39,367 nucleotides of DNA from Acidobacteriota bacterium (GTDB lineage: Bacteria > Acidobacteriota > Thermoanaerobaculia > UBA5066): NCBI GenBank assembly GCA_029567505.1, contig JAKPXO010000323.1:1-39367 (forward strand), written 5' to 3'. How positions within the stretch are numbered: the first letter of the stretch is position 1; each line of letters opens with the position of its first letter. This document shows positions 1,900 to 22,203 of the stretch, piece by piece. The notes under the pieces are model-generated. The model was not told the DNA's origin. It did not search any database and was given only the letters and a program-made list of their open reading frames with translations. The position numbers were made by a program, and so were the translations under genes.

Positions 1900-1936
1900 G
1901 GCGGTTTCATACCACGGGCCGTTGCCGTATGCGGGC

Positions 1937-3235
1937 TCAGCCGGACGGAGGCGCTTCGCCGCGTCCCTCCTGATCATCGAGCGTGGCGGCGCGGAAGCAC
2001 TCCTCGAGGTTCGCGGCGACGAGCTCGACGCCGCGCGGGTCGAGCTTTCCCGTCTCGACGAAGCGGCGAAGATGGTCGAGGATCGCCTCCGGTCCGAGCG
2101 GGCCGCGGTAGGGGCGTCGCTGTGCGAGGGCCTGGAAGACGTCCGCGATCGCGAGGAGCCGGGCGGGAAGGGGGATCTCCTCTCCGCGCCGGTGGAACGG
2201 GTAGCCCTTCCCCGAGAGCCCCTCGTGGTGATAGCCGGCCCAGGCGGCGATCTCTCGAAGCGGCTCGACCCGGCGGAGGATCTGGAACGTCTCGAACGCG
2301 TGCCGCTCGATGGCGGCGAACTCCCCCGCGTCGAGCGGCGCCTGCTTGTCGAGGACCTCGTCGGGGACACGGAGCTTGCCGAGGTCGTGGAGGAGGCCGG
2401 CGACCCGGAGGTGGGCGGAGGTCCGCGGGTCGAGGCCGGCGAGGCGGCCGAGGAGCGCGGCGAGCCGGGCGACGGCGACGGAGTGGGCGGCCGTGTAGGG
2501 GCTCTTCGCGTCGACGATCTCCGCGAAGACGAGGGCGAGGTCCTCGAGCGCGGAGGCGGGCACGGTCCGGCTCCTCTCGAGGCGCATCTCGTCCCGCAGG
2601 GCCCTCTCGAGGTGGTGCGCCTCGAGAGTGAGCCAGAAGGCCTCCGCCGCCGACGCCGCCAGGAAGGCGCCGACGGTCTCCTCGGCGAACAGACCTCCCG
2701 AGCGGGCGAAGACCCAGCGGCGCATCTCGTCCGTCGCGAGGAGGGGGTCGGAGCCCCGACGGGCCTGGAGGAGAGCGTCCACGCGGTCGGCGAGGAAGAC
2801 GAGGTTCGCCAGGAGGGCGATGCGAGGGTCGGCGGCTCGGCGCTCGTCCGAGTCCCAGGGCGTGTGGTGGAGGCCGACGATCGCCGCGACCCGGGAGAGG
2901 GGGTCGAAGCGGCGGAGGAGGCCCGCGCCGGCCTCCGCATGGCCGCGGGCCTCCTCGAACGCGAAGTCGGCCTCGAGGAGCCTCGCGTGGAGGCGCGTCG
3001 ACGAGACGCCGCAGTCGTGCAGGACGGCCGCGAGGAGGAGGTCGCTTCTCTCGTCCTCCTCGAGCGCGAGCGATCGGCCGCACGAGGCCGCCATGAACGC
3101 GACACGCTTGCCGTGCTGGACGACGTGCGTCCCGACGAGGTCGAGGGCGTCGGAGAGGGCGAGGACGACCTCGTTCAGGTCGATCCGCTCGGGGTCGGAG
3201 CCGTCGGCAGGCCGGGTCTCGCCTTCCGTCCTCAT
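1937..3235 (-). CDS. HD-GYP-type protein with two HD domains
   Basis: Probable cyclic-di-GMP phosphodiesterase or related phosphohydrolase, 432 residues, with no membrane segment. The N-terminal half (about 30-200) is a first HD-like domain with HD at 73-74 and HH at 123-124 but no GYP. The C-terminal half (about 235-420) is a full HD-GYP domain with H251, HD 283-284, H312, HH 336-337, GKGYP near 342-346 and D365. The ATG at 3235 follows an AGGGAG ribosome-binding site. It is co-directional with queC (37-base gap) and divergent from the lipid-modification operon. It has no receiver or GAF domain, so any input may come through the first HD unit. c-di-GMP activity is inferred from motifs. Confidence 0.88.
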
Positions 3236-3410: not shown

Positions 3411-4667
3411 ATGAACCTGGCGATCGTGGGTACGGGGATCTCGGGCCTCGGGGCCGCCTGGCGGCTCCACGAGAGGCACGACGTCCGCGTCTTCGAGAGG
3501 GAGCGACGCCCCGGAGGCCACAGCCACACGGTGGACGTCCCCGGCTCACGCGGCGCGGTCCCCGTCGACACCGGCTTCCTCGTCTACAACGAGGTGACCT
3601 ACCCGAACCTCGTGAAGCTCTTCGCGACGCTTGGCGTCCCGACGAAGGAGAGCGACATGTCGTTCTCCGTCCGCTGCGAGCGCTGCGACCTCGAATGGTG
3701 CGGGACGGGGCTGTCGGGCGTGTTCGCCCAGCCGGCGAACCTCCTGAAGCCCTCGTTCCACGGGATGCTCCTCGAGATCGCCCGCTTCAACCGCGAGGCG
3801 CCCCGTCTCCTCGAGGAGAGAGGGGCCGAGACGCTCACGCTCGCCGCGTACCTCGACCGCGAGCGGTACGGTGCCGCGTTCCGGAACCACTACCTGATCC
3901 CGATGGCCGCCTCCGTCTGGTCCTCCGGCCCCGCGGCGATGGAGACCTTGCCCTCGGCGACGCTCGTCCGCTTCTTCCGGAACCACGGCTTCCTCGGGGT
4001 GACGACGCAGCTCCGGTGGCGGACGGTCGACGGCGGAAGCCGCGAGTACGTGAAGCGCCTGACGGAGCCGTTCCGCGACCGGCTCCATCTCGGGAACGGC
4101 GTGACGAGAGTCCGGCGGGACGCGCACGGCGTCGAGCTCGTCTTCGCGGACGGCGGGAGCCAGCGGTTCGACGGCGTCCTGATCGCGACGCATGCCGACG
4201 AGGCGCTCGCGATGCTCGAGGGGCCGACGGCGGACGAGAAACGCCTCCTCGGCGCGTGGAGCTTCTCGAGCAACGAGACGCTGCTCCACTCCGACCGTAC
4301 GTTCCTCCCGCTCCGGCGCGGCGCCCGCGCCTCCTGGAACTACCACCTCGAGGACTGCGAACGGCCCTGGGGCTCGGCGACGCTCCACTATTTTCTCAAC
4401 CGTCTCCAGGGGCTCCCGACGGAGACGGACTGGATCGTCTCCCTGAACCCGCGGCGCGAGCCGGCGGAGGGGACGGTCGCGCGGCGCCTCCTCTACACCC
4501 ACCCGGTCTACACCCCGGCGAGCGTCGCGACGCAGGCCGAGCTCCCGTCGCTGAACGGGAAGCGGCGGACCTGGTTCGCGGGCGCCTGGTTCGGCTACGG
4601 TTTCCACGAGGACGGGCTGCGGTCGGGCCTCGAGGCCGCCGTCTCGCTCGGCGCGGAGCCGCTGTGA
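3411..4667 (+). CDS. FAD-dependent amine-oxidase-like oxidoreductase of a lipid-modification operon
   Basis: Cytosolic flavoprotein of 418 residues with an N-terminal dinucleotide fold (GTGISG at 7-12, then ERERRPGGHSHT) and a C-terminal GAWFGYGFHEDGLRSG segment that closes the FAD site. It belongs to the NAD(P)/FAD-dependent oxidoreductase family typically found beside DUF1365 and cyclopropane-fatty-acid synthase genes. The likely role is oxidation or desaturation of a lipid or methylated acyl chain, but the substrate is not visible from sequence. The start is supported by purine-rich GGAGGAC and GGGAGG just upstream. It is the first gene of a five-gene cascade, and its stop overlaps the next GTG start (GTGA). 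Confidence 0.87.
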   Translation: MNLAIVGTGISGLGAAWRLHERHDVRVFERERRPGGHSHTVDVPGSRGAVPVDTGFLVYNEVTYPNLVKLFATLGVPTKESDMSFSVRCERCDLEWCGTGLSGVFAQPANLLKPSFHGMLLEIARFNREAPRLLEERGAETLTLAAYLDRERYGAAFRNHYLIPMAASVWSSGPAAMETLPSATLVRFFRNHGFLGVTTQLRWRTVDGGSREYVKRLTEPFRDRLHLGNGVTRVRRDAHGVELVFADGGSQRFDGVLIATHADEALAMLEGPTADEKRLLGAWSFSSNETLLHSDRTFLPLRRGARASWNYHLEDCERPWGSATLHYFLNRLQGLPTETDWIVSLNPRREPAEGTVARRLLYTHPVYTPASVATQAELPSLNGKRRTWFAGAWFGYGFHEDGLRSGLEAAVSLGAEPL

Positions 4668-5461
4668 CCGGACGGGAGACGAAGAGGCCGCTTGCCTCGG
4701 CCCTCTACGTCGGCACGGTCCGCCACCGGCGGCTCACGCCGAAGCCCCACGCCTTCTCGTACCGGGTGTGGCAGCTCCTCCTCGACCTCGACGAGCTGCC
4801 CCGGATCGAGGAAGAGGTCGGCCTCTTCCGGCACAACCGGAGCGGCTGGACCGCGCTCTTCGACCGCGACTACCTCGGGCCGGCGGAGAGGCCGGTCAAG
4901 GAGAAGCTCCGCGACTGGCTCGCCGCGCGCGGCCACGTCCTCGGCGAGCGGCGCGTCCTCCTCCTGACCCACGCCCGCGTCCTCGGCTACGCCTTCAACC
5001 CGGTGAGCTACTACTACGTCCTCGGGGCGGACGGACGGCTGGACCTCGCCGTCGCCGAGATCAACAACACCTTCGGCGAGACGTTCGGGTACGTCCTCGA
5101 GCGGCGCGGGGACGAGCCGGGAATCCGGACTCCCCGTTTCCCGAAGGTCTTCCACGTCTCGCCCTTCCTCCCGATGGACCTCGAGTACGAGTTCCACCTC
5201 TCGGTCCCGGGAGACGGCCTCGTCGTCCACGTCGACGACTTCGAGAGCGGCGTCAAGGTCTTCGACGCGACGTTCTCGGCGCGGCGGCGGCCGCTGACGA
5301 CGGCGAGCCTGGCGCGGGCCCTCCTCGCGAACCCGCTGATGCCGGCGATGGTGATCGCCTGGATCCACTGGCAGGCGCTGAAGCTCTGGCTCAGGGAGCT
5401 CCCCGTCTACACCCGACCCGAGCCCCCGGCCGGGCTGATCCACACGAGGAGAGCCGCGTGA
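4664..5461 (+). CDS. DUF1365 family protein
   Basis: 265-residue protein of the DUF1365 family, whose biochemistry is not established. Family hallmarks are LYVGTVRHRRLTPKPHAFSY at the N-terminus, GYAFNPVSYYY in the middle, then INNTFGETFGYVL and KVFHVSPFLPM, and a hydrophobic segment near the C-terminus (PLMPAMVIAWIHWQALKLW) that may touch the membrane. The GTG start at 4664 overlaps the upstream stop as GTGA, and its own stop overlaps the CFA synthase start the same way, so the three products are probably made in fixed proportion. Its constant association with CFA-type enzymes suggests a role in membrane fatty-acid modification. Confidence 0.9.
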   Translation: MTGRETKRPLASALYVGTVRHRRLTPKPHAFSYRVWQLLLDLDELPRIEEEVGLFRHNRSGWTALFDRDYLGPAERPVKEKLRDWLAARGHVLGERRVLLLTHARVLGYAFNPVSYYYVLGADGRLDLAVAEINNTFGETFGYVLERRGDEPGIRTPRFPKVFHVSPFLPMDLEYEFHLSVPGDGLVVHVDDFESGVKVFDATFSARRRPLTTASLARALLANPLMPAMVIAWIHWQALKLWLRELPVYTRPEPPAGLIHTRRAA

Positions 5462-6747
5462 CCACTCTCGAGTCGACTTCCGACGCCCTCGTCTCCGGGG
5501 CCCCTTCGCCGGGGCTCCTCGACCGCCTCGCCGCGCGGCTCGCTCTTCGCGCGCTCGAGGGGATTCGGGAAGGGGCCGTCCTCCTGACGCTCCCGGACGG
5601 GACGACGCGCCGCTTCGGAGCGGAGGAGGCCCGCCCCGTTCGCCTCTTCGCGCGCTCCTGGAGGCCGTTCCGGGCGCTCCTCGCGGCCGGCGACCTCGGC
5701 GCCGCGGAGGCCTACCTCGACGGCGAGTGGACGGCCGACGACCTTCCGGGCCTCGTGAGGCTCTTCGCGAGGAACGCCGACCTCCTCGACCGCGAGACCT
5801 GGGCGACCCGCCTCACGAACGTGGCGAACCGGCTCCTGCATGCCCGGAATCGGAACAGCCGGGCCGGCTCGCGGCGGAACGTGCCGGTGCATTACGACCT
5901 CGGCAACGACCTCTACGAAACCTTCCTCGACCCCTCGATGACGTACTCCTGCGCTCTCTTCGAGACGGGGGACGAGACTCTCGAAGAGGCACAGGAGAAG
6001 AAGCTCCGCAGGATTGCCGAGAAGGCCCGGATCCGGCCCGGCGACCACGTCCTCGAGATCGGCTGCGGGTGGGGCGCCTTCGCCCTCCTCGCCGCGCGGG
6101 AGTACGGAGCCCGTGTCACCGGGATCACCCTCTCCACGGAGCAGGCGGCCCGGGCGCGGGAGCGGGTGGCGCGGGAAGGGCTCGCGGATCGCGTCGAGAT
6201 CCGGCTCGTCGACTACCGCGACCTCCCGGCCGAGGGAAGGACGTACGATCGGGTCGTGTCGGTCGAGATGCTCGAGGCGGTGGGGGAGGAGTTCCTCCCG
6301 GGCTATTTCGAGGTCGTCGACCGGCTCCTCGCGCCCGACGGGATCGCGGTGATCCAGTCGATCACCGTTCCCGACGACCGCTACGCCCGCTACCGCCGAC
6401 GCCCCGACTTCATCCAGAAGTACGTCTTTCCGGGGAGCCACTGCCCCTCCGTCGGGGCGATCGTTTCGGCCGTCTCCGCCCGTTCCCGCCTCCTCGTCCA
6501 CCACCTCGAGGACGTCGGGGCGCACTACGCCGAGACGCTGCGGCGGTGGCGGGAGGCGTTCCTCGCGAACCGGCCGCGGGTGCGCCAGCTCGGCTACGAC
6601 GAGCGATTCACGCGCCTCTGGGACTTCTACCTGGCTTACTGCGAGGGAGGCTTCGCCGAGCGTCATATCGGGGACGTCCAGGTCGTCCTGACCCGCTCGG
6701 GAAACCACGCCCTCGGCCCCGCGCCCGGCTACCGGGGAGAGGCGTGA
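5458..6747 (+). CDS. Cyclopropane-fatty-acyl-phospholipid synthase family methyltransferase
   Basis: SAM-dependent enzyme acting on double bonds of membrane phospholipid acyl chains, 429 residues. The N-terminal lipid-binding region is followed by HYDLGNDLYETFLDPSMTYS, then the conserved Cys at about 165 (YSCALFE), the SAM loop VLEIGCGWG (198-206) and VSVEMLEAVG. The position that is His in E. coli Cfa reads Gln here (VIQSIT). The downstream DFIQKYVFPGS and HYAETLRRW motifs are intact. The product could be a cyclopropane or a methylated chain. The GTG start at 5458 is set by the GTGA overlap with DUF1365. Confidence 0.92.
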   Translation: MTTLESTSDALVSGAPSPGLLDRLAARLALRALEGIREGAVLLTLPDGTTRRFGAEEARPVRLFARSWRPFRALLAAGDLGAAEAYLDGEWTADDLPGLVRLFARNADLLDRETWATRLTNVANRLLHARNRNSRAGSRRNVPVHYDLGNDLYETFLDPSMTYSCALFETGDETLEEAQEKKLRRIAEKARIRPGDHVLEIGCGWGAFALLAAREYGARVTGITLSTEQAARARERVAREGLADRVEIRLVDYRDLPAEGRTYDRVVSVEMLEAVGEEFLPGYFEVVDRLLAPDGIAVIQSITVPDDRYARYRRRPDFIQKYVFPGSHCPSVGAIVSAVSARSRLLVHHLEDVGAHYAETLRRWREAFLANRPRVRQLGYDERFTRLWDFYLAYCEGGFAERHIGDVQVVLTRSGNHALGPAPGYRGEA

Positions 6748-7301
6748 TCGAGGTCCTGCGCCGGCGGCTCGTCCGCCCGATCCTCGAGCAGCTGACGCAG
6801 GGGCTCTCCCCGGACGCGATCGCCCTGACGATCGCGATCGGCCTCGCGATCGCCGTGATCCCGATCGTCGGGACGACGACGATCCTCTGTACGACGGCGG
6901 CGATCGTCCTCCGGCTCAACCAGCCGCTCATCCAGGCGATCAACTACCTCTCGTTCCCGCTCCAGCTCGCGTTCATACTCCCGTACCTGAAGCTCGGTCG
7001 GCTCCTCTTCGGCGGACCGGCCGTCCGGATGTCGGCCGAGGAGCTCGCGGCCTTCGTGACGTCGCGGCCCGGGGAGGCGATCGAGGCGCTCTGGCGCGTG
7101 ACGCTCCAGGCCGTCGGCGCCTGGGCCCTGACGGCCCCTCTGATCGGCGCGGCGGTCTACTTCGCGGTGCGCCCCGCCCTGCGCGCCGCCGCGCGGCGGC
7201 TCCGGCCGACGAAGGGGGCGGACGCCCCGACCGGACCGGCGGCCGGGGCGAAGCTCGCCACGGTGCCGGTCCCGGCCGCCGAGGAGAGCGATGCCCGTTG
7301 A
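6744..7301 (+). CDS. DUF2062 membrane protein
   Basis: Small integral membrane protein of 185 residues with the DUF2062 pattern: an N-terminal basic segment, a hydrophobic pair around [20 protein letters not shown] and the conserved [19 protein letters not shown] further helix lies near 130-150, and the C-terminal tail is rich in Ala, Pro and Arg. Its biochemical role is unknown. It begins with GTG overlapping the CFA synthase stop (GTGA), and its end overlaps the next gene by 11 bases, which ties it into the lipid-modification operon. A membrane scaffold or lipid-handling role is inference from context. Confidence 0.85.
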
Positions 7302-8346
7302 GCACGGCTGGGCGCAGCTCGCCCTCGAGCGGGGACTCGTCCCGGACGTCCTCGTCCGGCGCAGGATCCGCGAGCTCCTGCGCCGGCGGCTCGCCGAGGA
7401 GCGGGCCGGCGACGCCGAGGCGGCGCTCGAGCGCGAGGAGCGGCTCGTCGCCCAGATGCGGGAGAGCCCGGTGGCGCTCGCGACGGCCGAGGCGAACGAG
7501 CAGCACTACGAAGTCCCTCCCGAGTTCTTCGAGCTCGTCCTCGGCGCGTACCGTAAGTACTCCTCCGGCCTCTGGTCGGACGGGGTGACGACCCTCGACG
7601 CCGCCGAGGCGGCGATGCTCGCCCTCACCTGCGCGCGCGCCCGCCTCGAGGACGGGCAGAACGTCCTCGAGCTCGGCTGCGGGTGGGGCTCGCTGACGCT
7701 CTGGATGGCCGAGCGCTACCCCGCGTCCCGGATCGTCGCCGTCTCGAACTCGAGGAGCCAGCGCGAGTACGTCGAGGCCCGGGCGGCGGAGCGGAACCTC
7801 TCGAACGTGAAGGTCGTCACCTGCGACATGAACGTCTTCGACCCGGCGACCGGCCCGGCCTTCGACCGCGTCGTCTCCGTGGAGATGTTCGAGCACATGC
7901 GCAACTGGCCCGAGCTCCTCGGCCGGATCGCCTCGTGGCTGAAGCCCGACGGACGGCTCTTCGTCCACGTCTTCTCGCACCGCGACGTCTCGTACCCGTT
8001 CGTCGCGAGGGACGAGAGCGACTGGATGGCCCGGAGCTTCTTCACCGGAGGCCTCATGCCTTCGGACCACCTCCTCCTCCGCTTCCCCGAGCACCTCTTC
8101 GTCGAGGAGCGCTGGCGGGTGAACGGAACGCACTACGCGCGGACGGCGGAGGCGTGGCTCGAGAACCTGGACCGGAGACGCGCCGGAGCGCGGAAGCTCT
8201 TCGAGAAGGCGTACGGGCCCGCCCTCGCGCGCCGCAAGCTCGCCGAGTGGCGCGTCTTCCTCATGGCCTGCGCGGAGCTCTGGGCGTTCGGGGGCGGGAA
8301 CGAGTGGATGGTCTCCCACTATCGCCTGCGCCGCCGGTACGTCTAA
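7291..8346 (+). CDS. CFA/coclaurine N-methyltransferase-like SAM methyltransferase
   Basis: Second SAM-dependent enzyme of the cyclopropane-fatty-acid synthase superfamily, 351 residues, closest in style to the coclaurine N-methyltransferase-like branch. Visible motifs are [23 protein letters not shown] (125-133), [13 protein letters not shown] and [10 protein letters not shown]. The segment that is YSCAYW in E. coli Cfa reads YSSGLW (90-95), so the conserved Cys is missing. That argues against a simple duplicate of the preceding synthase. It starts 11 bases inside DUF2062 and closes the operon. The acceptor is unknown: a lipid intermediate made by the upstream enzymes is the obvious candidate. 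Confidence 0.88.
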
Positions 8347-9063: not shown

Positions 9064-9087
9064 GGGGCGCGGCGTCAGCCGCGCCCC
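9064..9087. terminator. Perfect 10-bp hairpin between msrA and the RND gene
   Basis: GGGGCGCGGC (9064-9073), loop GTCA (9074-9077), GCCGCGCCCC (9078-9087). It separates two convergent genes and is symmetric, so it can terminate or stabilise both transcripts. The RND stop codon (TCA on this strand) occupies three of the four loop bases. There is no T-tract. Confidence 0.6.
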
Positions 9088-11420
9088 TGGTGGGTGTCCC
9101 CGAGCAGTCCGCGGGCGAGCGCCGGAAGCAGGACGAGGGCTCCGACCATGTTCATCAGGAAGAGGAAGCAGAGGAGCAGCCCCATGTCGGCCTGGAACTT
9201 CAGCGGCGAGAAGATCCACGTCGCGACGCCGAGCCCGAGGGTGATGCCGGTGAAGAGGACGCCGTTCCCGGTGATCGCGAGCGTCTTCCGGTAGGCCTCG
9301 GTCAGCGGAGCGCCGTCCCGGTAGAGCGACCGGAAGCGGGCGAAGATGTAGATGCCGTAGTCGACGCCGACGCCGACGCCGAGCGCCACGACGGGGAGCG
9401 TCGACACCTTCAGACCGATCTTCAGCCACGCCATGAGCGCGTAGGCGAGGAGGGAGACGAGGGCGAGCGGGACGAGGATGCAGAGCGTCCCGCGGAGCGA
9501 GCGGAACGAGACGAGGCAGAGGACGACGACGGCCCCGAAGACCCACGCGAGGATGGGGAACTGGGCCGAGGAGACCGCCTCGTTCGTGGCCGCCATGACG
9601 CCGACGTTGCCGGTCGCGAGGCGGAACCTCACGTCGGGGTGGCCGTGGTCGGTCTCGAAGCGCTTCACCTCCGCGACGATCCGCTCGATCGTGTCGGCCT
9701 TGTGGTCGGCTGTGAACATCATCACCGGTATGACGCTGCAGTCGGAGTTGAGGAGGCCGGAGGTCGTCGGGACGTAGGTGACGGACTGCTGGAGGACGGA
9801 CTGGTTGCGCGAGAGGACCCGCCACTTCGGGGACCCTTCGTTCCACCCCGCGTTGAGCATCTTCGCGATCGCGGGGAGGGCGATCGTGGACTGGACCCCC
9901 TCGACGTTCTCCATGTGCCACGCGAAGTCGTCGATCGTCGTCATGACGGAGTGGTCGACGCACCCCTCGGGCTTCGTCTCGACGATGGCGGTGAGGATGT
10001 CGACGCCGATCGAGAACTTCGACGTGATGACGGCGCTGTCGACGTTGTAGCGCGAATCGGCTCGCAGCTCGGGGACGCCCCGGTGGAGGTCGCCGACCTT
10101 CACGTCGCGTCCCTTCCAGAGGCCGAGGCCGAAGAGGAGGGCCGCCACGGCGACGATCACGGCGGCGGGCCTCGGGGCGGAGACCTGCGCGAGCCGGCGC
10201 CAGAGGCCGGACATGTGCTCGGCCCGGCGGTGGAGGCGGGCGTTGTAGTCGGCGGGGTAGTGTAGGTACGAGAGGACGACCGGGATCAGGAAGAGGTTCG
10301 TCAGGATGATGACGGCCACGCCGAGGCTCGCCGTGATCGCGATCTCCTGGATGACCCGGATCTTGATGAGGAGGATCGTCAGGAACCCGATCGTGTCGGA
10401 CGCGAGCGCGATGAAGCCCGGCACGAGGAGGCGCCGGAAGCTGTTTCGCGCGGCGGTCATCGGGTCGGCGCCGTCGAAGATCTCGGCGCCGTTCGCGCTG
10501 ATCATCTGGACGGCGTGGCTGACGCCGATCGCGAAGATGAGGAACGGGACGAGGATCGACATCGGGTCGATCCCGAAGCCGAGGAGCGTGAGGAGGCCGA
10601 GCTGCCAGACGACGGCGATCGTCGAGCAGCCGAGCGCCACGAGCGAGAGCCGGTGCGACTGGGAGTAGAGGTAGACCAGGAGGCCCGTGAGGGCGTACGC
10701 GACGAGGAAGAAGAGGATGACGCGGCGGGTGCCGGCGGAGATCGCGCCGACGACCTTCGCAAAGCCGATGATCCGCACGTCCACCTTGGAGCTCGGGACG
10801 AACTCCGCGTCGAACTGTCGGCGGACCTTCTCCTCGAGCACGTTCGAGACGGCGATGAAGTCGAGCTTCTGCCCGGTCGAAGGGTCGACCTCGAGGAGCT
10901 CGGCGCTGATGATCGTCCCCGAGAAGTCGTTCGCCACGAGCCGTCCGACGATGCCGGCCTTCAGGACGTTGCGGCGGACCTGGGCGAGCCCCTCGGCGTC
11001 CGGCGCGAAGTCGTCGGGGATGACGTTCCCGGCGGCGATGCCGTCCTCGACGACCTCGGTGTAGCGGACGTTCGGCGTGAAGAGCGACTGGACGCGGCTC
11101 CGGTCGACGCCGGGGATGAAGAAGACCTCGTCGGTCGCCTTCTTCAGCGCGTCGAGGAACTCGGGCGTGAAGATGTCGCCTTCCCGCGCCATCATCGCCA
11201 CGAGGACCCTGTTCGCCCCGCCGAACTCCTGCTGGTGCTTCAGGAACGTCTCCATGTAGGGATGGGCGTGCGGGAGGTTCTTCTGGAAGCCCGCGTCGAC
11301 CTTCAGGTGCGCCGCCGACCAGGCCATGAAGAGCGTGGCCGCGGCGAAGAAGCCGAGGACGACGGGCCGGTGGCCGAAAACCGCTTTCTCCAGGAAGCTC
11401 GTGATCCGTTCCTTCGTCAT
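9075..11420 (-). CDS. MMPL/RND-family transporter
   Basis: Inner-membrane proton-driven transporter of 781 residues in two homologous halves, each with a leading helix (VVLGFFAAATLFMAWSAAHL; AAVIVAVAALLFGLGLW), a large periplasmic loop and a helix bundle. The second bundle carries the GVGVGVDYGIYIFARF segment typical of MMPL-type RND permeases. This branch handles lipids and other hydrophobic cargo, unlike tripartite drug pumps, and no membrane-fusion protein gene is adjacent. It is the last gene of a minus-strand module with DUF1302, DUF1329 and a YCF48 propeller, 55 bases after the propeller gene with a hairpin (11448-11465) between. The cargo is unknown. Confidence 0.9.
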   Translation of the reverse strand: MTKERITSFLEKAVFGHRPVVLGFFAAATLFMAWSAAHLKVDAGFQKNLPHAHPYMETFLKHQQEFGGANRVLVAMMAREGDIFTPEFLDALKKATDEVFFIPGVDRSRVQSLFTPNVRYTEVVEDGIAAGNVIPDDFAPDAEGLAQVRRNVLKAGIVGRLVANDFSGTIISAELLEVDPSTGQKLDFIAVSNVLEEKVRRQFDAEFVPSSKVDVRIIGFAKVVGAISAGTRRVILFFLVAYALTGLLVYLYSQSHRLSLVALGCSTIAVVWQLGLLTLLGFGIDPMSILVPFLIFAIGVSHAVQMISANGAEIFDGADPMTAARNSFRRLLVPGFIALASDTIGFLTILLIKIRVIQEIAITASLGVAVIILTNLFLIPVVLSYLHYPADYNARLHRRAEHMSGLWRRLAQVSAPRPAAVIVAVAALLFGLGLWKGRDVKVGDLHRGVPELRADSRYNVDSAVITSKFSIGVDILTAIVETKPEGCVDHSVMTTIDDFAWHMENVEGVQSTIALPAIAKMLNAGWNEGSPKWRVLSRNQSVLQQSVTYVPTTSGLLNSDCSVIPVMMFTADHKADTIERIVAEVKRFETDHGHPDVRFRLATGNVGVMAATNEAVSSAQFPILAWVFGAVVVLCLVSFRSLRGTLCILVPLALVSLLAYALMAWLKIGLKVSTLPVVALGVGVGVDYGIYIFARFRSLYRDGAPLTEAYRKTLAITGNGVLFTGITLGLGVATWIFSPLKFQADMGLLLCFLFLMNMVGALVLLPALARGLLGDTHQGRG

Positions 11421-11447
11421 CTCGTCCCCTCACCCCTCCGCCGGCGC

Positions 11448-11465
11448 CCCGGGCCCGAGCCCGGG
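11448..11465. repeat. 7-bp hairpin between propeller and RND genes
   Basis: CCCGGGC (11448-11454), loop CCGA, GCCCGGG (11459-11465). It sits inside the operon, between the propeller stop and the RND start, where it could attenuate or protect the message and set different amounts of the two products. Confidence 0.4.
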
Positions 11466-11475
11466 AGCGCCCGCC

Positions 11476-12435
11476 CTAGAACGGCTTCTCGATCGGCCGG
11501 ACCCCGCCCTCTCCGAGGAGGACGATCCCGCCCGCGCCTCCCGGAAGGATCGCCAGCGAGGCCTTTCGGTCTTCCTGCTCCCGGGCCCGGAACGTGCGGC
11601 CGGCGTCTTCGCTGAAGAGGAGGACGCCGGCCAGGCCCGCCACGACGACCCGGCCGCCGCCGAGCTCCCGGCCGGTCATCAGCGTCGCTTCGGTGCCGGA
11701 AGCGACGCCGGTCCAGGTCGTCCCTCGATCCTCGCTGCGGAAGAGGTGCCCCCGGAGCCCGAAGGCCAGGAGGCCCCCGTCGGAGAGCGAAAGCAGGCCG
11801 AAGAACGAGCCCTCGTAGGGGGACGGGAGCGCCTTCCAGCTCTCGCCCCCGTCGTCGGAGCGGTAGAGGGAGCCCGCCTCTCCGGCGAGAATGAGCGCGC
11901 CGTCCGCCTCCGCGATCGCGTTCAGGTGCGTGTCGTCCCCCGCGACGACCGTCCGGCTCTCCCACGTGTCGCCGCCGTCCCCGGTCGCGAGGAGGAGGCC
12001 GTAAGCGCCGATCGCGAAGCCCTGTCTTTCGTCACGGAACCAGACGTCGAGGAGCGGCCTCTCCTCCTCGGGAGCGTGGCGGACGCGCTGCCAGGTCGCC
12101 CCGCCGTCGCGCGTCCGGAGGATGGTCTCGTCGTGTCCGACCGCCCACCCGAGGCGGGAGTCGTGCAGGAAGACGCCGGTGAGGAGCGCTCGCGTCGGCG
12201 CCTCGGCCTGGGTCCACGACGCCCCGCCGTCGCGGGAGACGAGGATGTGCCCTCGCTCGCCGACCGCGACGGCGAGGCCGTCGCGGTCGGCGACGTCGAG
12301 GAGGAGCGAACGAGCGGCGAGCCGGGCGGGCGTCGACCGTTCGGACGCGGCGGGAGGCTCCGCCGCGCCCGCAGGGGCCAGGGTCGCCAGGGCGAGCAGG
12401 GCCGCGCCGAGCGCGGGAACGGACTTCTCACGCAT
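11476..12435 (-). CDS. Secreted YCF48/BNR-type beta-propeller protein
   Basis: 319 residues with a signal peptide (MREKSVPALGAALLALATLA, cleavage after about AGA) followed by repeated propeller blades. At least six Asp-box or related turns are visible: SRDGGASW, TRDGGATW, TGDGGDTW, SDDGGESW, SEDRGTTW and SEDAGRTF. The family is named after the photosystem II assembly factor YCF48, but outside phototrophs the same fold is found beside DUF1329/DUF1302 and RND genes, where its task is unknown. It would act in the periplasm, probably as an assembly scaffold for its neighbours. It lies 16 bases after DUF1329 and starts behind a GGAGG site. Confidence 0.88.
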   Translation of the reverse strand: MREKSVPALGAALLALATLAPAGAAEPPAASERSTPARLAARSLLLDVADRDGLAVAVGERGHILVSRDGGASWTQAEAPTRALLTGVFLHDSRLGWAVGHDETILRTRDGGATWQRVRHAPEEERPLLDVWFRDERQGFAIGAYGLLLATGDGGDTWESRTVVAGDDTHLNAIAEADGALILAGEAGSLYRSDDGGESWKALPSPYEGSFFGLLSLSDGGLLAFGLRGHLFRSEDRGTTWTGVASGTEATLMTGRELGGGRVVVAGLAGVLLFSEDAGRTFRAREQEDRKASLAILPGGAGGIVLLGEGGVRPIEKPF

Positions 12436-12451
12436 GGCGCGGCCCTCCGGG

Positions 12452-13813
12452 TCAGCGGACGCCTTCGCGCCGGAGAGCGTCCGGCATGAAGTCGCCCTCG
12501 CTCCGCTTGATCTTGAAGTCGTGCGGCGCGTTCTCGCTGTTCAGGCCCATGACGAGGTAGCGCCCCGCCTGGAGGTCGGTGTGGGACTCGGCGGAGGTCC
12601 AGATCGTCGGCAGATCGTAGTAGGCGATGGCGTGCCCTTCCGAGACGCGCCAGAGCTGGTCACGGTTGTCGTACTGGTCGACGACGAGGATCTGCCAGCT
12701 GTCCTCGTCGATGTAGAAGGTCCGACGCTTGTAGATGTGCCTCTCGCCCTTCTTCAGAGTCGCGTCGACGACCCAGACCCGGTGCAGCTCGTAACGGGTG
12801 TGGTCGGGGTTCATGTGGAGCGGCGTGAGGATGTCCTTGTACTTGACCTTCGGGTCCTGGAGCCGGTAGGCGTTGTAGGGGACGTAGATCTCCTTCTTCC
12901 CGACGAGCGTCCAGTCGTACTTGTCCGGCGCGCCGTTGAACATGTCGAGCTGGTCGCTCGTCCTCATGTTGTCGGCGGCCGTGCCAGGGTTGTCGTAGGC
13001 GACCTGCGGGGCGCGCCTCACGCGCCGCTGGCCCGGGTTGTAGAGCCAGGCGTCGCGGGGCTGCGCGACCTGGTTCATCGACTCGTGGACGAGGAGGATG
13101 CCTCCCGCGAGGCGCGCCGGCGCGGTGACCGCCTGCTTGAAGTTGAGGAGGCGGTTCTTCATCGAGGCCTCGGTCGTGCCGGGGAGGTGGTAGACGAACA
13201 TCGTCTCCTCCTCGAACTGCACGAGCGTGTACTGGCCTCCACGCGTCGGGGCCGCCTGCGCGACGGTGCGCCCCGCGATCTCCGCCCGGTAACGGAGGAG
13301 GTGGTTCCAGATGACCTCGATGCCGCTCTTCGGGATCGGGAACGGGATGCCGCCGACGGCGCCGGTCACTCCGTTCCCCCCTTCCGCGAGCTTCGCGGTC
13401 GTGGCGACCTTCTTCGTGGCGTCGTAGATCCGCTGCGGCGCCGCGCCGGTCCGGTGCGTCGGGTAGACCGGCATCCGGAAGGAGGGGTACGCCTTCAGCA
13501 TCGCCTTGTGCCCTTCGGAGAGCTTCGCGGCGTGCTGCGCGGCGTTCTTGCCGTCGATCGTGAAGAGGGGCTTCTCCCCGGCGAAGGGGTCGGCGTAGTG
13601 GGTGCCCGGCTTCCAGCCCGCCGGCGCCTTCGTCAGGCCGCCGTCCCAGGCCGGGATCGAGCCGTCGGCGTTCCCGGCCTTCTCGCCGCCGAGCGGTGTG
13701 AGGGACGCGCCGAGCTTCGCGGCGTCCTGCGGGGAGAGCTGGGCGAGGGCGCTCCCGCCGAGGAGGGCGGAGAGTGTCAGCGTGCAGAGGAGGATTCGGG
13801 TGTTCCTTCGCAT
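12452..13813 (-). CDS. DUF1329 periplasmic protein (LolB-like fold family)
   Basis: 453-residue DUF1329 protein with a cleavable signal peptide (MRRNTRILLCTLTLSALLGG, ending near ALA-Q). Conserved segments include GSIPAWDGGL near the N-terminus, the YNPGQRRVRRAPQVAYDNPG block and the long region about IYVPYNAYRL, RYELHRVWVVDATLK, RRTFYIDEDSWQI and YDNRDQLWR. DUF1329 members are predicted to share the curved beta-sheet fold of lipoprotein carriers LolA/LolB, which fits ferrying a hydrophobic ligand across the periplasm. It is 16 bases after DUF1302 and behind a good AAGGTGGAG site. The ligand is unknown. Confidence 0.92.
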   Translation of the reverse strand: MRRNTRILLCTLTLSALLGGSALAQLSPQDAAKLGASLTPLGGEKAGNADGSIPAWDGGLTKAPAGWKPGTHYADPFAGEKPLFTIDGKNAAQHAAKLSEGHKAMLKAYPSFRMPVYPTHRTGAAPQRIYDATKKVATTAKLAEGGNGVTGAVGGIPFPIPKSGIEVIWNHLLRYRAEIAGRTVAQAAPTRGGQYTLVQFEEETMFVYHLPGTTEASMKNRLLNFKQAVTAPARLAGGILLVHESMNQVAQPRDAWLYNPGQRRVRRAPQVAYDNPGTAADNMRTSDQLDMFNGAPDKYDWTLVGKKEIYVPYNAYRLQDPKVKYKDILTPLHMNPDHTRYELHRVWVVDATLKKGERHIYKRRTFYIDEDSWQILVVDQYDNRDQLWRVSEGHAIAYYDLPTIWTSAESHTDLQAGRYLVMGLNSENAPHDFKIKRSEGDFMPDALRREGVR

Positions 13814-13829
13814 TTCGGCTCCACCTTCT

Positions 13830-15650
13830 CTAGAAGGAGTACTTCACGTTGCCCGCGAGGAAGTCGCGGTCGTTGATCAGGTTGTACCGCCCCGCGCCGA
13901 AGTAGCGGGTGTAGCTCAGGTCCCACTCGACGTTGATCCGGTACTGGAAGCCGAGGCCGAGCGTCAGCGCCATCCGGTCCTCGATGAAGGAGCCGCCCGG
14001 TCCGGGCGAGACCCCGTTCACGTCGTGGGCGAAGGAGAAGCGCGGGGCGAGGTTGATCGCGCCGATGGCGTTGCTGTAGTCGAGCCGGCCGGCCACGACG
14101 TAGCCCCAGGACGAGCTCGTCGGGAACGCGGTGGAGGGCTCGGTGCCCGGCTGGACGCCCGCCTGCTGGTGGGCCGGGTTGCCGCTCGTGTAGGTGCCCG
14201 GCGCCTCGAGCCGGAGGACGGACTGCTCGGGGAGGTCGTGGACCTTGCTCCAGGCGCCCTCGGCGACGAGGACGAGCTGGTCGGCGCCGAGGACGCGGCC
14301 GAAGACCCGCGTCGCGGTGAGCTGGGCCTGAGTCGTGTCGAAGAGCCGATAGCCGCGAATCTCCTCGTCGAAGCCGTAGGCGCCGGCCTGGTTCGTCGCG
14401 GCCAGGAGCCCTCCGAGCTGCCGGAGCGGGGCGAGCTGCGGCGCCGCCGGAAGGAGCCGGAGGGGCGTGAGCGCCGCGTAGAGGATCTCGACGTCGTCGA
14501 CCTGGAGGGGGACGTCCTTGCGATGGGAGACCTCTCCCTGGAGCGCGACGCCGGTGCTTCTGAGCTGGGCGTTGAAGCTGAGGCCGTAGAGCTTGATGTC
14601 CTCCGGGTAGGAGAGGAAGTAGCTCGCGCTCGCCGCGTAGTTCCCCCGGGTGAGGAGGCCCGCCTGGGTCCCGGTGCGCGCCATGATGAGAGGCAGCCGG
14701 CTGTGGTAGTTCATGTAGAAGAGGCCGAACTCGGTCCCGCCGAGGGCGGGGACGAAGAGCCGGAACGCGGCGCCGTACTGGCCGGAGTCGTCGGCCTCCC
14801 GGTCGCCGTTGCGCGGGACGGCGACGCCGACCGGGTTGTTCGGGATGTTGAAGCCGACGGGGATGGAGTCCGGGGCGGAGCCGAACCCGAGCATGACCTT
14901 CGTGGCCCCGGCGCCCGCGAGGTCGGTCGTGGAGAAGTAGCTCCCGACCGGGTCGATCTTCGTCTGGGTCCAGGCGTACTGCCAGAACCCCTCGAGGGAC
15001 GTGTTCTTCGAGGGCTTCACGCTCAGGAGGACGGCGCCCACGGGGAGGAGGGCGTCGCGCAGCTCGGAGCCGGGGACGCGCAGGGCGCTCACGTCGACCG
15101 GGTTGATCGCGTTGATGCCGCCCTGGATGAACGTGCTCTCGCCCCAGTTGATGACCTGCCAGCCGGCTCGGATCTCTCCCGGGACGGGCCCGAGGTCGAA
15201 CTTCGCCCAGAGGAAGGCATCCCGGATCTCCGCCCGGCTGCCGACCCGGTCGAGGGCCTCGGGGCTCAGCGGGGTGCGGTCGCGGTCGCGCTCCTCGTTC
15301 TCGATGTCGTAGAAGCCGTAGGCCCTCACGAACGCGCCGATCCGCTTGTACGTCAGCTCGAGCTCGGTCGTCGCCTTGAAGGCGCTGCTCGCGAGGCCCG
15401 TGTCGTAGTTGAGGTTCCCGTCGTCGCCGTTCACGGAGAACGCCGTCCCTCCGGACGCGAGGCCGACGAGCGCACGGTCCCTCTTCTCGACTCGAGCGAA
15501 GAGACCGTACGACACCGTCGTGTCCCAGCTCCAGGAGAAGTCCCCCTGCTTCCCGTCGATCGCGGGTGCCGTCCGGGCCAGGGGGGCCAGGAAGGCCGCG
15601 GCGAGTGCCGCAATCGCGGCACTCCGTGTCGTCATTCGAAATGCGCTCAT
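13830..15650 (-). CDS. DUF1302 outer-membrane beta-barrel protein
   Basis: 606-residue protein of the DUF1302 family with a signal peptide (MSAFRMTTRSAAIAALAAAF, cleavage near APA-I). Alternating hydrophobic/polar strands run through the whole mature part, and the chain ends in KYSF, the C-terminal aromatic expected of barrel proteins inserted by the Bam machine. Family segments include WSWDTTVSYG, GWQVINWGES and INAINPVDV. The ATG at 15650 is preceded by AAGGGGG, and the 29 residues further upstream in frame look non-coding. First gene of the DUF1302-DUF1329-propeller-RND module, where it would form the outer-membrane pore or receptor. The substrate is unknown. Confidence 0.9.
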   Translation of the reverse strand: MSAFRMTTRSAAIAALAAAFLAPLARTAPAIDGKQGDFSWSWDTTVSYGLFARVEKRDRALVGLASGGTAFSVNGDDGNLNYDTGLASSAFKATTELELTYKRIGAFVRAYGFYDIENEERDRDRTPLSPEALDRVGSRAEIRDAFLWAKFDLGPVPGEIRAGWQVINWGESTFIQGGINAINPVDVSALRVPGSELRDALLPVGAVLLSVKPSKNTSLEGFWQYAWTQTKIDPVGSYFSTTDLAGAGATKVMLGFGSAPDSIPVGFNIPNNPVGVAVPRNGDREADDSGQYGAAFRLFVPALGGTEFGLFYMNYHSRLPLIMARTGTQAGLLTRGNYAASASYFLSYPEDIKLYGLSFNAQLRSTGVALQGEVSHRKDVPLQVDDVEILYAALTPLRLLPAAPQLAPLRQLGGLLAATNQAGAYGFDEEIRGYRLFDTTQAQLTATRVFGRVLGADQLVLVAEGAWSKVHDLPEQSVLRLEAPGTYTSGNPAHQQAGVQPGTEPSTAFPTSSSWGYVVAGRLDYSNAIGAINLAPRFSFAHDVNGVSPGPGGSFIEDRMALTLGLGFQYRINVEWDLSYTRYFGAGRYNLINDRDFLAGNVKYSF

Positions 15651-15767
15651 CGGATCCCCCTTCGCCAATCTGCGGGCTTGGCGCGGAGGGTAACCCAGGG
15701 GACTCGGATTTCGCACAGAAACCGTGCTCGGCGTCACAAACGCGCTAACGCGCGACCAAAGAGATGT

Positions 15768-15833: not shown

Positions 15834-17288
15834 TCAGGGGCGCGCGTAGCTGTCGATGACCTTCTCGATCGCCTTGCGACAAACGGGGCAGAAGCCGCCT
15901 GTCGTCCGGGTGAACATGATGCAGTCGGCCGAGGAGCGGTAGAGCCCCTTCGCCTCGTAGGCGGCCCCCTCGAAGGCGCCGACCTTCCCGGCAAACCTCT
16001 CCTTCGCGAAGAAGGCCGCCTCCGCCTTCTGCTGCTCGCGGAAGAGGGCGTCGATCTCGGAGGGCGGGACGCCCTTCGCGAGGAGGGCCTTCCTCCGGGC
16101 CTGGAACTCGCGGGAGGCCTTTTCGAACGCGTCCTTCGACCAGGGCGTCGGGAGCGGCGTCCCCGCCTCGACGAGCTCCTTCCACTTCGGGTTCGCCGGG
16201 TCCTTCAGCGCCGTCACGTTCATCTCCCACGGCTCGGGGAGGTCGGCGGCGCCCGTCTCGTAGGCGACGTCGGAGGTGTAGTACTCGTCGGCGAGGGCGG
16301 CGAAGTGGTGGCCGAACTCGTGGACGAAGACGTAGTCCGCGAACGCGGTGTCGGCCGAGGCGGTCGCCTGGTTGTTGTAGATGCCGCCGCCTCCGTACTG
16401 CGCGTCGTTCACGAGGATCTCGAGGACGTCGTACGGGGCCTGGGCCGCCGCGTCGCGCAGGGCGCGGTCGTCGTACGTCAGGACGTAGCGCTCGGAGCCG
16501 AAGACGTTGTACTGAACCTGGAGCGGCGTCCGCCGGAAGATGCTCGACTGCGGCCGATGCGCCCCACCGTCGCCAGAGGGGAGGTCGAGGGCCCGGACGT
16601 TGAAGTCCCCCTTCCGCGACGTGAACGGCTCGAATCGGAAGAGCGCGTCGACCATTCGCTTCACGTCCGCCCGGAACTTCGGGAGGTCCTTCTCCGCGTA
16701 TCCCTCGCCGAGGACGAGGAGGTCGACCTTCTCCGTGGCGGGACCGTTCTCGAAAACGGTCCAGACCGTCCCGGCCTTCGGCGGGGGCGCCGGGTTCACG
16801 TCGGGCGAGGCGGGGTCAACGAGCGTTCCCCAGACCTCCCGAAAGAGGTTCCGCCGGTCGCGCTTCTTCAGGACGACCTGGACGGGACGGAGCGGCCAGG
16901 GGAAGCGGAGCGACTCGCGGAACGTCCGGTGCGTCGCCTTCGCCTCGGGGGTCGTCTCCCATTCGGCGTAGATCGAGGAATAGCCGCGGGCATAGAGGAG
17001 GCGGCCCGTCGACGGGTCGAGGACCTCGAAGCGATACGAGCCGAGGCCGAGGCCGTCGTCCGCCTTCGTGAGGGTCCCGGCCCAGGGGCCGTCGTTCACG
17101 ACGCGGTCGACGACGACGATCTCGGCTCCCTTCCCTCCGGTGTGGAGCAGGTCGACCCGCATCGTCTGCGGCGTGAAGTCGTCCAGGAGGGCGGGCGCGG
17201 CGCCGCTTCCCGGGGCGGAGAGAGGGGCGAGCAGGAGGAAGGCCGCCCCGAAGGCGGCGCCGTGGACGTGCAGGGGGGTGCGTCTCAT
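15834..17288 (-). CDS. Secreted peptidase M64 (IgA-peptidase-M64 family)
   Basis: Zinc metallopeptidase of 484 residues with a signal peptide (MRRTPLHVHGAAFGAAFLLL, then APLSAPGSGA). A roughly 160-residue N-terminal domain precedes the catalytic domain, which opens with VDLLVLGEGYAEKDLPKF (about 188-205). The zinc motif is HEFGH at 323-327, followed by HFAALADEYY. Four-cysteine-type sequence near the C-terminus (CIMF...FCPVC) is typical of this family. It would act in the periplasm or outside the cell, and its substrate cannot be told from sequence. The gene stands alone, divergent from thpR by 45 bases and closed by a strong hairpin. The family name does not imply it cuts immunoglobulin. Confidence 0.92.
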   Translation of the reverse strand: MRRTPLHVHGAAFGAAFLLLAPLSAPGSGAAPALLDDFTPQTMRVDLLHTGGKGAEIVVVDRVVNDGPWAGTLTKADDGLGLGSYRFEVLDPSTGRLLYARGYSSIYAEWETTPEAKATHRTFRESLRFPWPLRPVQVVLKKRDRRNLFREVWGTLVDPASPDVNPAPPPKAGTVWTVFENGPATEKVDLLVLGEGYAEKDLPKFRADVKRMVDALFRFEPFTSRKGDFNVRALDLPSGDGGAHRPQSSIFRRTPLQVQYNVFGSERYVLTYDDRALRDAAAQAPYDVLEILVNDAQYGGGGIYNNQATASADTAFADYVFVHEFGHHFAALADEYYTSDVAYETGAADLPEPWEMNVTALKDPANPKWKELVEAGTPLPTPWSKDAFEKASREFQARRKALLAKGVPPSEIDALFREQQKAEAAFFAKERFAGKVGAFEGAAYEAKGLYRSSADCIMFTRTTGGFCPVCRKAIEKVIDSYARP

Positions 17289-17321
17289 GCGGACCTCGCG
17301 AGGATCGTAGCGGAGCGGGGC

Positions 17322-17915: not shown

Positions 17916-17948
17916 AGGCCCCCTCCGGGCCGGATGAAGGAGAGAACG

Positions 17949-19091
17949 ATGATCGACTTCTCCCTGACCGAGGAGCAGCAGGCGCTGCAGGAGCTGGCCC
18001 GGAAGTTCGCGCGCGAGGAGATGGCCCCGAAGGCGGCGCACCACGACGAGACGGGCGAGTTCCCCGCCGAGATCGCCAAGAAGGCGTGGGAGCTCGGCCT
18101 GATGAACACCCACGTCCCGCCGGAGTACGGCGGAATGGGGCTCGGCGTCCTCGACGGCTGCATCATCACCGAGGAGCTCGCCTGGGGCTGCACGGGCATC
18201 GCCACGGCGATGGAGGCGAACGCCCTCGCCGCGGCGCCCGTCATCGTCGCGGGGAGCGACGAGCAGAAGAAGGAGTTCCTCGGCCGGCTCACCTCCGAGC
18301 CGCTCTTCGCCGCCTACGCCGTGACGGAGCCGGGGGCCGGCTCGGACGTCGCGGGGATTCGGACGAAGGCGCGGAAGGTGGGCGACGAGTACGTGATCGA
18401 CGGGGCGAAGATGTGGATCACGAACGGCGGTGTCGCGAACTGGTACTTCGTCCTCGCCTACACCGACCCCGAGAAGAAGCACAAGGGGATGTCGGGCTTC
18501 CTCGTCCCGCGCGACACGCCGGGGATCACCGTCGGCAAGAAGGAGCAGAACCTCGGGCAGAGGGCGAGCGACACGCGCGGCCTGACGTTCGAGGAGGTGA
18601 AGGTCCCTGCGAAGTACCGCCTCGGCAACGAGGGGGACGGCTTCCGGATCGCGATGGCCGCGTTCGACCACACCCGCCCGCCGGTCGCCTCCGGGGCGGT
18701 CGGCCTCGCGCAGAGGGCGATGGACGAGTCTGTGAAGTACGCGAAGGAGCGGAAGACGTTCGGCCTGCCGATCGCCGCCTACCAGTCGATCAGCTTCATG
18801 ATCGCGGAGATGGCGATGAACATCGAGGCGGGACGCCACCTCGTCCGCCTCGCCGCGTGGGCGATCGACGCCGGGAAGCGGAACACGAAATACGCGGCGA
18901 TGGCGAAGGCCTTCTGCGCCGACATGGCGATGAAAGTCGCGACCGACGCGGTCCAGGTCCACGGCGGCTACGGCTACTCGCACGAGTACCCGGTCGAGAA
19001 GCTGATGCGCGACGCGAAGATCTACCAGATCTACGAGGGGACGAGCCAGATCCAGCGGCTCATCATCGCCAAGGAGACGTTCGAGCGCTGA
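17949..19091 (+). CDS. Acyl-CoA dehydrogenase (short/medium-chain type)
   Basis: FAD flavoprotein of 380 residues for the first alpha,beta-dehydrogenation of acyl-CoA. Signatures: [14 protein letters not shown] (substrate/FAD site), [32 protein letters not shown] and the C-terminal [10 protein letters not shown] with the catalytic-base Glu at about 363, the position used by short- and medium-chain enzymes. The start [10 protein letters not shown] at 17949 is preferred over a Met five codons earlier because AAGGAG lies six bases upstream and the family begins here. Its stop overlaps the start of the acyl-CoA synthetase gene, so the two are coupled. Electron-transfer flavoprotein genes are not in the window. 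Confidence 0.95.
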
Positions 19092-20601: not shown

Positions 20602-22203
20602 ATGCCCTATCTCGTACGGTCCTCGGGCGCCGGAGCTCCCGACGAGCGCTTTCCGCTGAAGCCGGGCGGCAACACCGTCGGGCGCTCCCGCGAGAACGAC
20701 GTCGTCCTCCTCGACGCGAGCCTGTCGCGGGTCCACGCCCGGATCGACGTCGAGCCGGACGGGTCGAGCGTCCTCGACCTCGGAAGCCGCAACGGGACGT
20801 TCGTCGGCGGGCTCCGCGTCCTCCAATGCCGGCTCAAGCACGGAGACACGCTGCAGCTCGGGGAGCTCCCGCTCCGGTTCGAGGAGGAGACGTCCCCGGC
20901 CCGGTCGGGCTACTCCTCCCCGGAGATGACGCTCCACGGCCTGATCGGGGCGGGCGCGGAGATCGACAAGACGTCGGCGATCCAGCTCCGCGGCGCGCTG
21001 CCGATGCAGCGCTCCGAGGCGAAGCTGAAGATCCTGCTGACCGTCTCGCAGATCCTCTCCTCGCCCGAGCCGGTCGACGCGGTCCTGCCGCGGATCGTCG
21101 AGCTCCTCCTCCAGATCCTCGACGTCCACCGCGTCGCCCTCCTCCTCATGGAGGAGGGGTCGGACGAGCCGGTCGCGAAGGTCGTGCGGTCGCGGAAGAC
21201 GATGACCGAGAGCGACTCGTTCTTCAGCCGGAGCATCGTGCGGCACGTCTTCGAGCGGGGGGAGGGGCTCGTCAGCGACGACGCGCTCGTCGACCCGCGC
21301 TTCGCCGGCTCGGCGACGGTCGCCGGAGACTCCATCCGCTCCTCGATGGCGGCGCCCCTGAAGGCGGGCGAGCGGGTGATCGGCGTCCTCTACGTCGACC
21401 ACCGCTCGATCCCGAACCGCTACTCGAGGGAGGACCTCGAGTTCCTCGGCGCGTTCGGCAGCCAGGCCGCGCAGGCGATCGAGAACGCGCGGCTGACCGC
21501 GAAGCTCCAGGAGGAAGCCGTCCGGCGCTCGAGCCTCCTGCGCTTCTTCCCGCCGTCCGTCGTCGGTCCCCTCATGGGCTCGGCCGACTTCGGCGCCCGG
21601 GTGCGCGACGCCGACGTGACGGTCCTCTTCTCGGACATCAGCGGCTTCACGGCGATGTCCTCCGAGCTGGCGCCCCGCGAGGTCGTCGACCTCCTGAACC
21701 GCTACTTTCCCGTGATGGCCGACATCGTCTTCCGCCACGAGGGGACGCTCGAGAAGTACATCGGCGACGCGCTGATGGCGATCTGGGGCGTCCCCGCCCC
21801 GCACGACGACGACGCGGACCGGGCCCTCTCGGCCGCGCTCGAGATGCGCCGCGCGCTCGAGCGGCTGAACGCCGCCTGGGGCGAGGGGCGGCGGCTCGAG
21901 ATCCACGTCGGCCTCAACTCCGGCCCCGTCGCGTTCGGGAACATCGGCTCTCCGCAGTACGTCCAGTTCGCCGCGATCGGCGACACGACGAACGTCTCGG
22001 CGCGCGTCTGCACGGCCGCGCAGCCGGGCGAGGTCCTGATCTCGGATGCGACCCGGCGGCGCCTGACGACGTCGAGGTTCGCGCTCGAGCCGCTGCCGCC
22101 GGTCGCGGTCAAGGGGAAGACCGAGCCGCTCCTCCTCCACCGGGCCCGCTGGGCGGCGCCGGAGGAGACGCGGGAGATCGATCGGAGCGCGCCGCGGAGC
22201 TGA
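20602..22203 (+). CDS. FHA-GAF-class III adenylate cyclase
   Basis: Soluble signalling enzyme of 533 residues. An N-terminal FHA domain (about 5-95; VGRSRENDVVL, SRVHARI, GSRNGTF) binds phosphothreonine peptides. A GAF domain (about 140-300) follows, then a class III nucleotidyl cyclase domain (about 330-515). Metal-binding Asp residues are D345 (LFSDISGF) and D389 (YIGDALMA). The substrate-site K385, D461 (AIGD) and transition-state N464/R468 (NVSARV) are kept, so it is probably an active adenylate cyclase. It converges on a Ser/Thr kinase gene and overlaps its 3' end by 95 bases, and a kinase-FHA partnership is plausible. The ligand of the GAF domain is unknown. Confidence 0.92.
   Translation: MPYLVRSSGAGAPDERFPLKPGGNTVGRSRENDVVLLDASLSRVHARIDVEPDGSSVLDLGSRNGTFVGGLRVLQCRLKHGDTLQLGELPLRFEEETSPARSGYSSPEMTLHGLIGAGAEIDKTSAIQLRGALPMQRSEAKLKILLTVSQILSSPEPVDAVLPRIVELLLQILDVHRVALLLMEEGSDEPVAKVVRSRKTMTESDSFFSRSIVRHVFERGEGLVSDDALVDPRFAGSATVAGDSIRSSMAAPLKAGERVIGVLYVDHRSIPNRYSREDLEFLGAFGSQAAQAIENARLTAKLQEEAVRRSSLLRFFPPSVVGPLMGSADFGARVRDADVTVLFSDISGFTAMSSELAPREVVDLLNRYFPVMADIVFRHEGTLEKYIGDALMAIWGVPAPHDDDADRALSAALEMRRALERLNAAWGEGRRLEIHVGLNSGPVAFGNIGSPQYVQFAAIGDTTNVSARVCTAAQPGEVLISDATRRRLTTSRFALEPLPPVAVKGKTEPLLLHRARWAAPEETREIDRSAPRS

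Follow-up and report, generated by a model that had tools for sequence, protein, structure and literature searches.

An AmeABCD-type four-gene transport cassette in an Acidobacteriota contig and its possible role in the uptake of hydrophobic growth substrates

Genes and protein families of the cassette

The DNA considered here is a stretch of 39,367 nucleotides (contig JAKPXO010000323.1, assembly GCA_029567505.1) from an Acidobacteriota bacterium, and the term window refers to the whole of this stretch. Its six-frame ORFs and their Pfam matches place four genes on one strand with intergenic gaps of 16 (A/B), 16 (B/C) and 55 (C/D) bases, which we name after the AmeABCD cassette:

13830..15650, minus strand, AmeA-like outer-membrane beta-barrel (DUF1302), 606 aa, signal peptide, PF06980 with E 1.2e-161
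12452..13813, minus strand, AmeB-like periplasmic carrier (DUF1329, LolA fold), 453 aa, signal peptide, PF07044 with E 1.3e-160
11476..12435, minus strand, AmeC-like secreted YCF48/BNR propeller, 319 aa, signal peptide, PF14870 with E 4e-24
9075..11420, minus strand, AmeD-like MMPL/HAE3-type RND permease, 781 aa, PF03176 with E 1e-19

The initial annotation of this DNA had described four genes on one strand, separated by short gaps, with one component for each compartment of the envelope; the ORFs and Pfam matches confirm the former, and the latter is judged right too. As judged from sequence, AmeA, AmeB and AmeC each carry an N-terminal Sec-type signal peptide and lack a lipobox cysteine, and the hydrophobic segments of AmeD fit 12 TM helices and two large periplasmic loops. 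The ATG at 15650 (606 aa) was preferred over the GTG at 15737 as the start of the barrel because the signal peptide follows it directly and homologs align from there. Genes for a membrane-fusion protein (MFP) or TolC, which a tripartite HAE1 RND pump has at its locus, were seen neither at this locus nor among the scanned ORFs of the window, in agreement with the earlier view that this is not a standard tripartite pump. A scan for consensus promoters and terminators gave no match above chance. The cassette is flanked by MsrA and M64 peptidase genes (Pfam); the latter (15834-17300) lies just upstream, on the cassette strand, and its ORF as listed is too long, the real start probably being near an internal signal peptide.

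The predicted LolA-like fold of the DUF1329 protein was confirmed by an AlphaFold2 model of AmeB (pLDDT 88), for which the top Foldseek matches are LolA3 9tp6 (TMt 0.82), 3bk5 (0.77), the DUF1329 structure 4z48 (0.74) and LolA. The closest PDB folds to the model of AmeA (pLDDT 84) are porin-type barrels (Occ/Opd family, BenF-like, AlgE). Assignment of AmeA as a FadL/Toluene_X porin (PF03349) is not supported: Pfam gives PF06980 only and FadL is absent from the 50 best folds. AmeC matches the Ycf48 structures 5ojp and 2xbg with E about 1e-20.

The best NCBIfam match of AmeD is TIGR00921 (HAE3), which covers the full length at 158.7 bits, below its cut-off of 351.9. Two HpnN models failed (72.2 bits against a cut-off of 751.85, and 24.6 against 1100), and the Patched and sterol-sensing Pfam models gave E values of 3-5e-4, under their cut-offs. 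In a comparison covering the RNDs of annotated plasmid cassettes, AmeD is 41-44% identical to these proteins and has the invariant motifs in common with them. Two of its TM motifs have the following positions:

10515-10520, minus strand, TM4 Ser301-His302 of AmeD
9357-9362, minus strand, TM10 Asp687-Tyr688 of AmeD

All 78 AmeD-type RNDs compared have Ser-His in TM4, where MmpL5 has Asp-Tyr, and all retain the Asp-Tyr of TM10; in five distant RNDs the TM10 Asp is present in 5/5 and TM4 is variable. This asymmetry between TM4 and TM10 is a mark of the AmeD subfamily, and it may bear on proton coupling. The invariant Ser-His that TM4 has instead of the usual Asp is new in this analysis.

Conservation and genomic neighborhoods

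The four genes are a real unit. We examined the 80 best DUF1329 loci on GTDB genome contigs, drawn from Acidobacteriota, Desulfobacterota, Myxococcota, Nitrospirota, Verrucomicrobiota and Pseudomonadota, and found the A-B-C-D order on one strand in 54 of them, in at least five phyla, where a locus was counted if at least DUF1302, DUF1329 and RND genes were present in that order. The remaining loci are cut contigs or A-B pairs, chiefly from Pseudomonas and Marinobacter, and AmeD was found elsewhere in 8/8 of the A-B-only genomes tested. At each of the 11 RND loci of high similarity that were read, the propeller gene adjoins the RND gene. In a mirror-tree comparison over 61 cassettes, the four sets of pairwise protein distances correlate with r of 0.71-0.95, and none of 1000 permutations reached the observed r (permutation maxima 0.19-0.28). 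Plasmid records with both DUF1329 and RND proteins number 38, against 0.02 expected.

The cassette is rare within Acidobacteriota. The full-length A, B and D families are nearly all-or-none across 247 genomes of the phylum: G000 and G052 are the only genomes with strong matches to A and D, and strong matches to B are confined to these two and G203. The initial annotation had stated that the four families co-occur, and they do so beyond chance, Acidobacteriota included (A, B and D together in 2/247 genomes; p about 1e-4 for A with B). This count excludes weak DUF1329 matches elsewhere in the phylum (19-38 bits), which are LolA-like proteins. The G203 match (L032, G203:C550) is a fragment of DUF1329 at the edge of a contig, and YCF48 and RND are absent from the next 5 kb. 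Within Acidobacteriota, the relatives whose position could be established (L031, L041 and L043) group with the window (SH-aLRT 93), and this single group makes a very recent transfer into this species unlikely. A cassette remnant was noted in Comamonas sp. 7D-2 plasmid pBHB (L038), where an RND gene and a partial YCF48 gene lie behind a transposase and no DUF1329 match was found.

In 19 other genomes among the 247, weak matches to DUF1329 and to DUF1302 are found no more than 2 kb apart, at 27 places in all. Roughly half of the loci of this kind that were read (L004-L030) also have the C-terminus of an RND protein next to the LolA-like gene, and no YCF48 was seen at any of these places. By these matches, an RND, a LolA-like protein and a DUF1302-like barrel seem to form a three-gene cousin of the cassette, distant and without the propeller; the presence of this cousin in other Acidobacteriota is new in this analysis.

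The fatty-acid gene context of the cassette, a description of the loci that were read, is also new in this analysis. In L044, L045, L048 and L087, loci of Desulfuromonadales type, genes for an acyl-CoA synthetase and a 3-hydroxyacyl-CoA dehydrogenase come after the cassette on its own strand, joined by thiolase and acyl-CoA dehydrogenase genes if the contig is long enough to reach them. The Pseudomonas and Marinobacter A-B pairs, as well as members of the L066/L072/L100/L113 clade, are also flanked by acyl-CoA synthetase or thiolase genes, a lipase-N-domain protein is encoded ahead of the cassette in L049, and the annotated plasmid copies are set among aromatic degradation genes. About 30 Alteromonadales-type loci have a housekeeping neighborhood (pepN, gdhB, pyrD) from which fatty-acid genes are absent. 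The window itself holds two genes of this kind outside the cassette:

17934..19091, plus strand, acyl-CoA dehydrogenase, divergent neighbor of the cassette, PF00441/PF02771/PF02770
19100..20587, plus strand, AMP-binding acyl-CoA synthetase, PF00501 at 260 bits and NCBIfam acyl-CoA synthetase subfamilies (coordinates of the translated stretch; start approximate)

The pair begins about 2.3 kb from the cassette start, is divergent from it and has the M64 peptidase gene in between, and the dehydrogenase is of short-chain type by its best match, below curated cut-offs. Relatives of both genes are held by L041, a contig 98% identical to the window. Acyl-CoA synthetase matches number 11 in 5.1 Mb, which makes one in the window moderately unusual and not more; the pair is possible metabolic context for the cassette. 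Beyond it, at 20602-25213, are convergent genes for an FHA-GAF-nucleotide cyclase and for a Ser/Thr kinase with TPR repeats.

Direction and cargo of transport

The initial annotation proposed that the module may export a hydrophobic molecule. A hydrophobic cargo is judged probable, in line with that annotation; export was an assumption, and the neighborhoods of relatives and the published phenotypes fit the uptake of a growth substrate at least equally well. We favor, with a probability of about one half, the reading that the cassette imports a hydrophobic growth substrate, probably fatty-acid-like in this lineage, with an NPC1-like AmeD; direction, cargo, order of hand-over and the role of the Ser-His are what we infer. 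A more specific and more tentative proposal is that AmeABCD systems carry out proton-driven import of fatty acids or hydrocarbons across the whole envelope, as a bacterial counterpart of NPC2-to-NPC1 transfer with an outer-membrane barrel in front, in which the RND protein, with Ser-His for Asp in TM4, works inward. In the path that we propose for uptake, the AmeA barrel would admit the molecule, either through the barrel or sideways into the outer membrane; AmeB, the LolA-fold carrier, would carry it over the periplasm; the AmeC propeller, docked to the periplasmic domains of the pump, would be the landing platform; and AmeD, with its conserved TM10 Asp-Tyr and TM4 Ser-His, would deliver it into the inner membrane on the proton gradient, by analogy with sterol in NPC1/NPC2.

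Uptake is weakened by the window's own acyl-CoA pair, which is divergent, separated from the cassette by the M64 gene and includes a dehydrogenase of short-chain type, and by the Alteromonadales-type housekeeping loci without fatty-acid genes. Also counting against it, characterized MmpL/HAE3 relatives (HpnN, MmpL3/4/5) export, and the genome carries a FadL homolog, so that an alternative fatty-acid route is possible; the absence of FadL had been considered as an argument for uptake and was dropped on finding this homolog. In support of uptake stand the catabolic neighborhoods of relatives, growth phenotypes on Tween 20 and limonene, the co-folding of the Pseudomonas putida proteins and the weak Patched and sterol-sensing matches of AmeD. 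The Pseudomonas putida homologs PP_0765/PP_0766 and PP_2018/PP_2019 are required for growth on Tween 20 (PMC10866462). A ΔameABCD mutant grows poorly on 3 mM limonene alone but keeps pace with the wild type when acetate is supplied, at limonene concentrations of up to 5 mM, and its real-time Nile Red efflux is almost identical to that of the wild type (PMC6394551). Impaired uptake explains these ΔameABCD results equally well as, or better than, impaired tolerance.

The authors of the AmeABCD study and of a paper on aromatic regulons favor efflux and tolerance (PMC6394551; PMC6449761): AmeD would extract toxic hydrophobics from the inner membrane for onward passage out of the cell by AmeC, AmeB and AmeA. 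RND relatives export, the ΔameABCD mutant copes less well with limonene above 5 mM and accumulates slightly more Nile Red when treated with CCCP (PMC6394551), and four genes of a further copy are under AphS/AphR/AphT control, interpreted as a solvent-stress response (PMC6449761). The published evidence for efflux is nevertheless thin in view of the Nile Red kinetics and the rescue by acetate; the Tween 20 requirement of the P. putida homologs points to nutrition more than tolerance, and beta-oxidation genes are co-directional with the cassette. On account of the near-identical Nile Red efflux and the limonene/acetate growth pattern we rank uptake first and regard efflux as rather unlikely.

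That the cassette moves ordinary lipids between the membranes for outer-membrane homeostasis, independently of catabolism, would suit the conserved housekeeping locus of the Alteromonadales-type genomes and the cousins with LolA-like protein, RND and barrel across other Acidobacteriota; the patchy presence (3/247 Acidobacteriota), the copies on catabolic plasmids and the substrate-conditional nature of the published phenotypes speak against it and make it improbable.

A lipid operon at 3411-8346 encodes an amine-oxidase-like flavoprotein and two CMAS-type methyltransferases, and on this side, convergent with the cassette, the next gene ends at 9055, 20 bases from the end of AmeD at 9075. The 98% identical contig L041 stops short of the operon side. 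On the minus strand at 1195-1880, QueC (queuosine biosynthesis) forms the C-terminal part of ORF 1195-3105. The suggested link between the lipid operon and the cassette fails, and the export of a lipid that carries a cyclopropane or some other modification, for which the enzymes of this operon and the 20-base spacing would argue, is highly improbable, given that the operon is convergent and not co-transcribed with the cassette, that CFA synthase relatives lie beside the cassette at 0/80 loci (62 of these >18 kb), that relatives of the flavoprotein and the second methyltransferase are absent from the flanks of the fetched loci, and that the cassette regularly occurs without the operon.

How very hydrophobic food crosses the periplasm of Gram-negative bacteria is an open question beyond the outer-membrane FadL. 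Import by the cassette, if correct, would make it a widespread, horizontally shared route for degraders of oil, terpenes, aromatics and fatty acids, and AmeD a rare bacterial RND protein operating inward. The conserved TM4 Ser-His offers a testable handle on the import reading.

Comparison with known systems

By its families, gene order and shared history, the locus in the window is almost certainly an AmeABCD-type four-gene transport cassette, a further member of a kind already known. The initial annotation took cargo and mechanism to be unestablished; the system itself is not undescribed, as AmeABCD (2018) and later papers cover the same cassette. AmeABCD of Castellaniella defragrans (Puentes-Cala and Harder 2018) consists of DUF1302, DUF1329, COG4447/YCF48 and RND proteins, the same families in the same order as in the window and likewise without MFP or TolC; that copy sits in a monoterpene island, and its likeness to the window is one of families and order (PMC6394551). 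The window AmeB groups with slowly evolving copies from Desulfobacterota, Nitrospirota, Verrucomicrobiota and gammaproteobacteria, several of them with a fatty-acid context. The P. putida set matches in barrel and carrier families and likewise has a periplasmic protein and an efflux-type transporter, but is divided over two loci whereas the four genes of the window are contiguous; co-folding of its proteins gave contacts A-B, B-D and C-D, which sets the AmeB-like protein between its AmeA-like and AmeD-like partners (PMC10866462). The nanopod cluster of the benzene degrader ORM2a, which is highly expressed, encodes DUF1329, YCF48 and MMPL proteins and a porin-like protein; unlike the window it includes a universal stress protein gene, and its proposed cargo is benzene, for which the authors do not commit themselves to a direction (PMC13101534). 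Delftia nanopod preparations contain DUF1302 and DUF1329 proteins.

Among eukaryotes, the RND protein NPC1 receives sterol from the soluble carrier NPC2. The passage from a soluble hydrophobic carrier to an RND protein is an analogy of mechanism only, as the carrier has the NPC2 fold there and the LolA fold here, and the cassette adds a propeller and an outer-membrane barrel. The hopanoid transporter HpnN is, like AmeD, an MMPL/HAE3-type RND with a hydrophobic cargo, but it functions without operon partners (PMC6394551).
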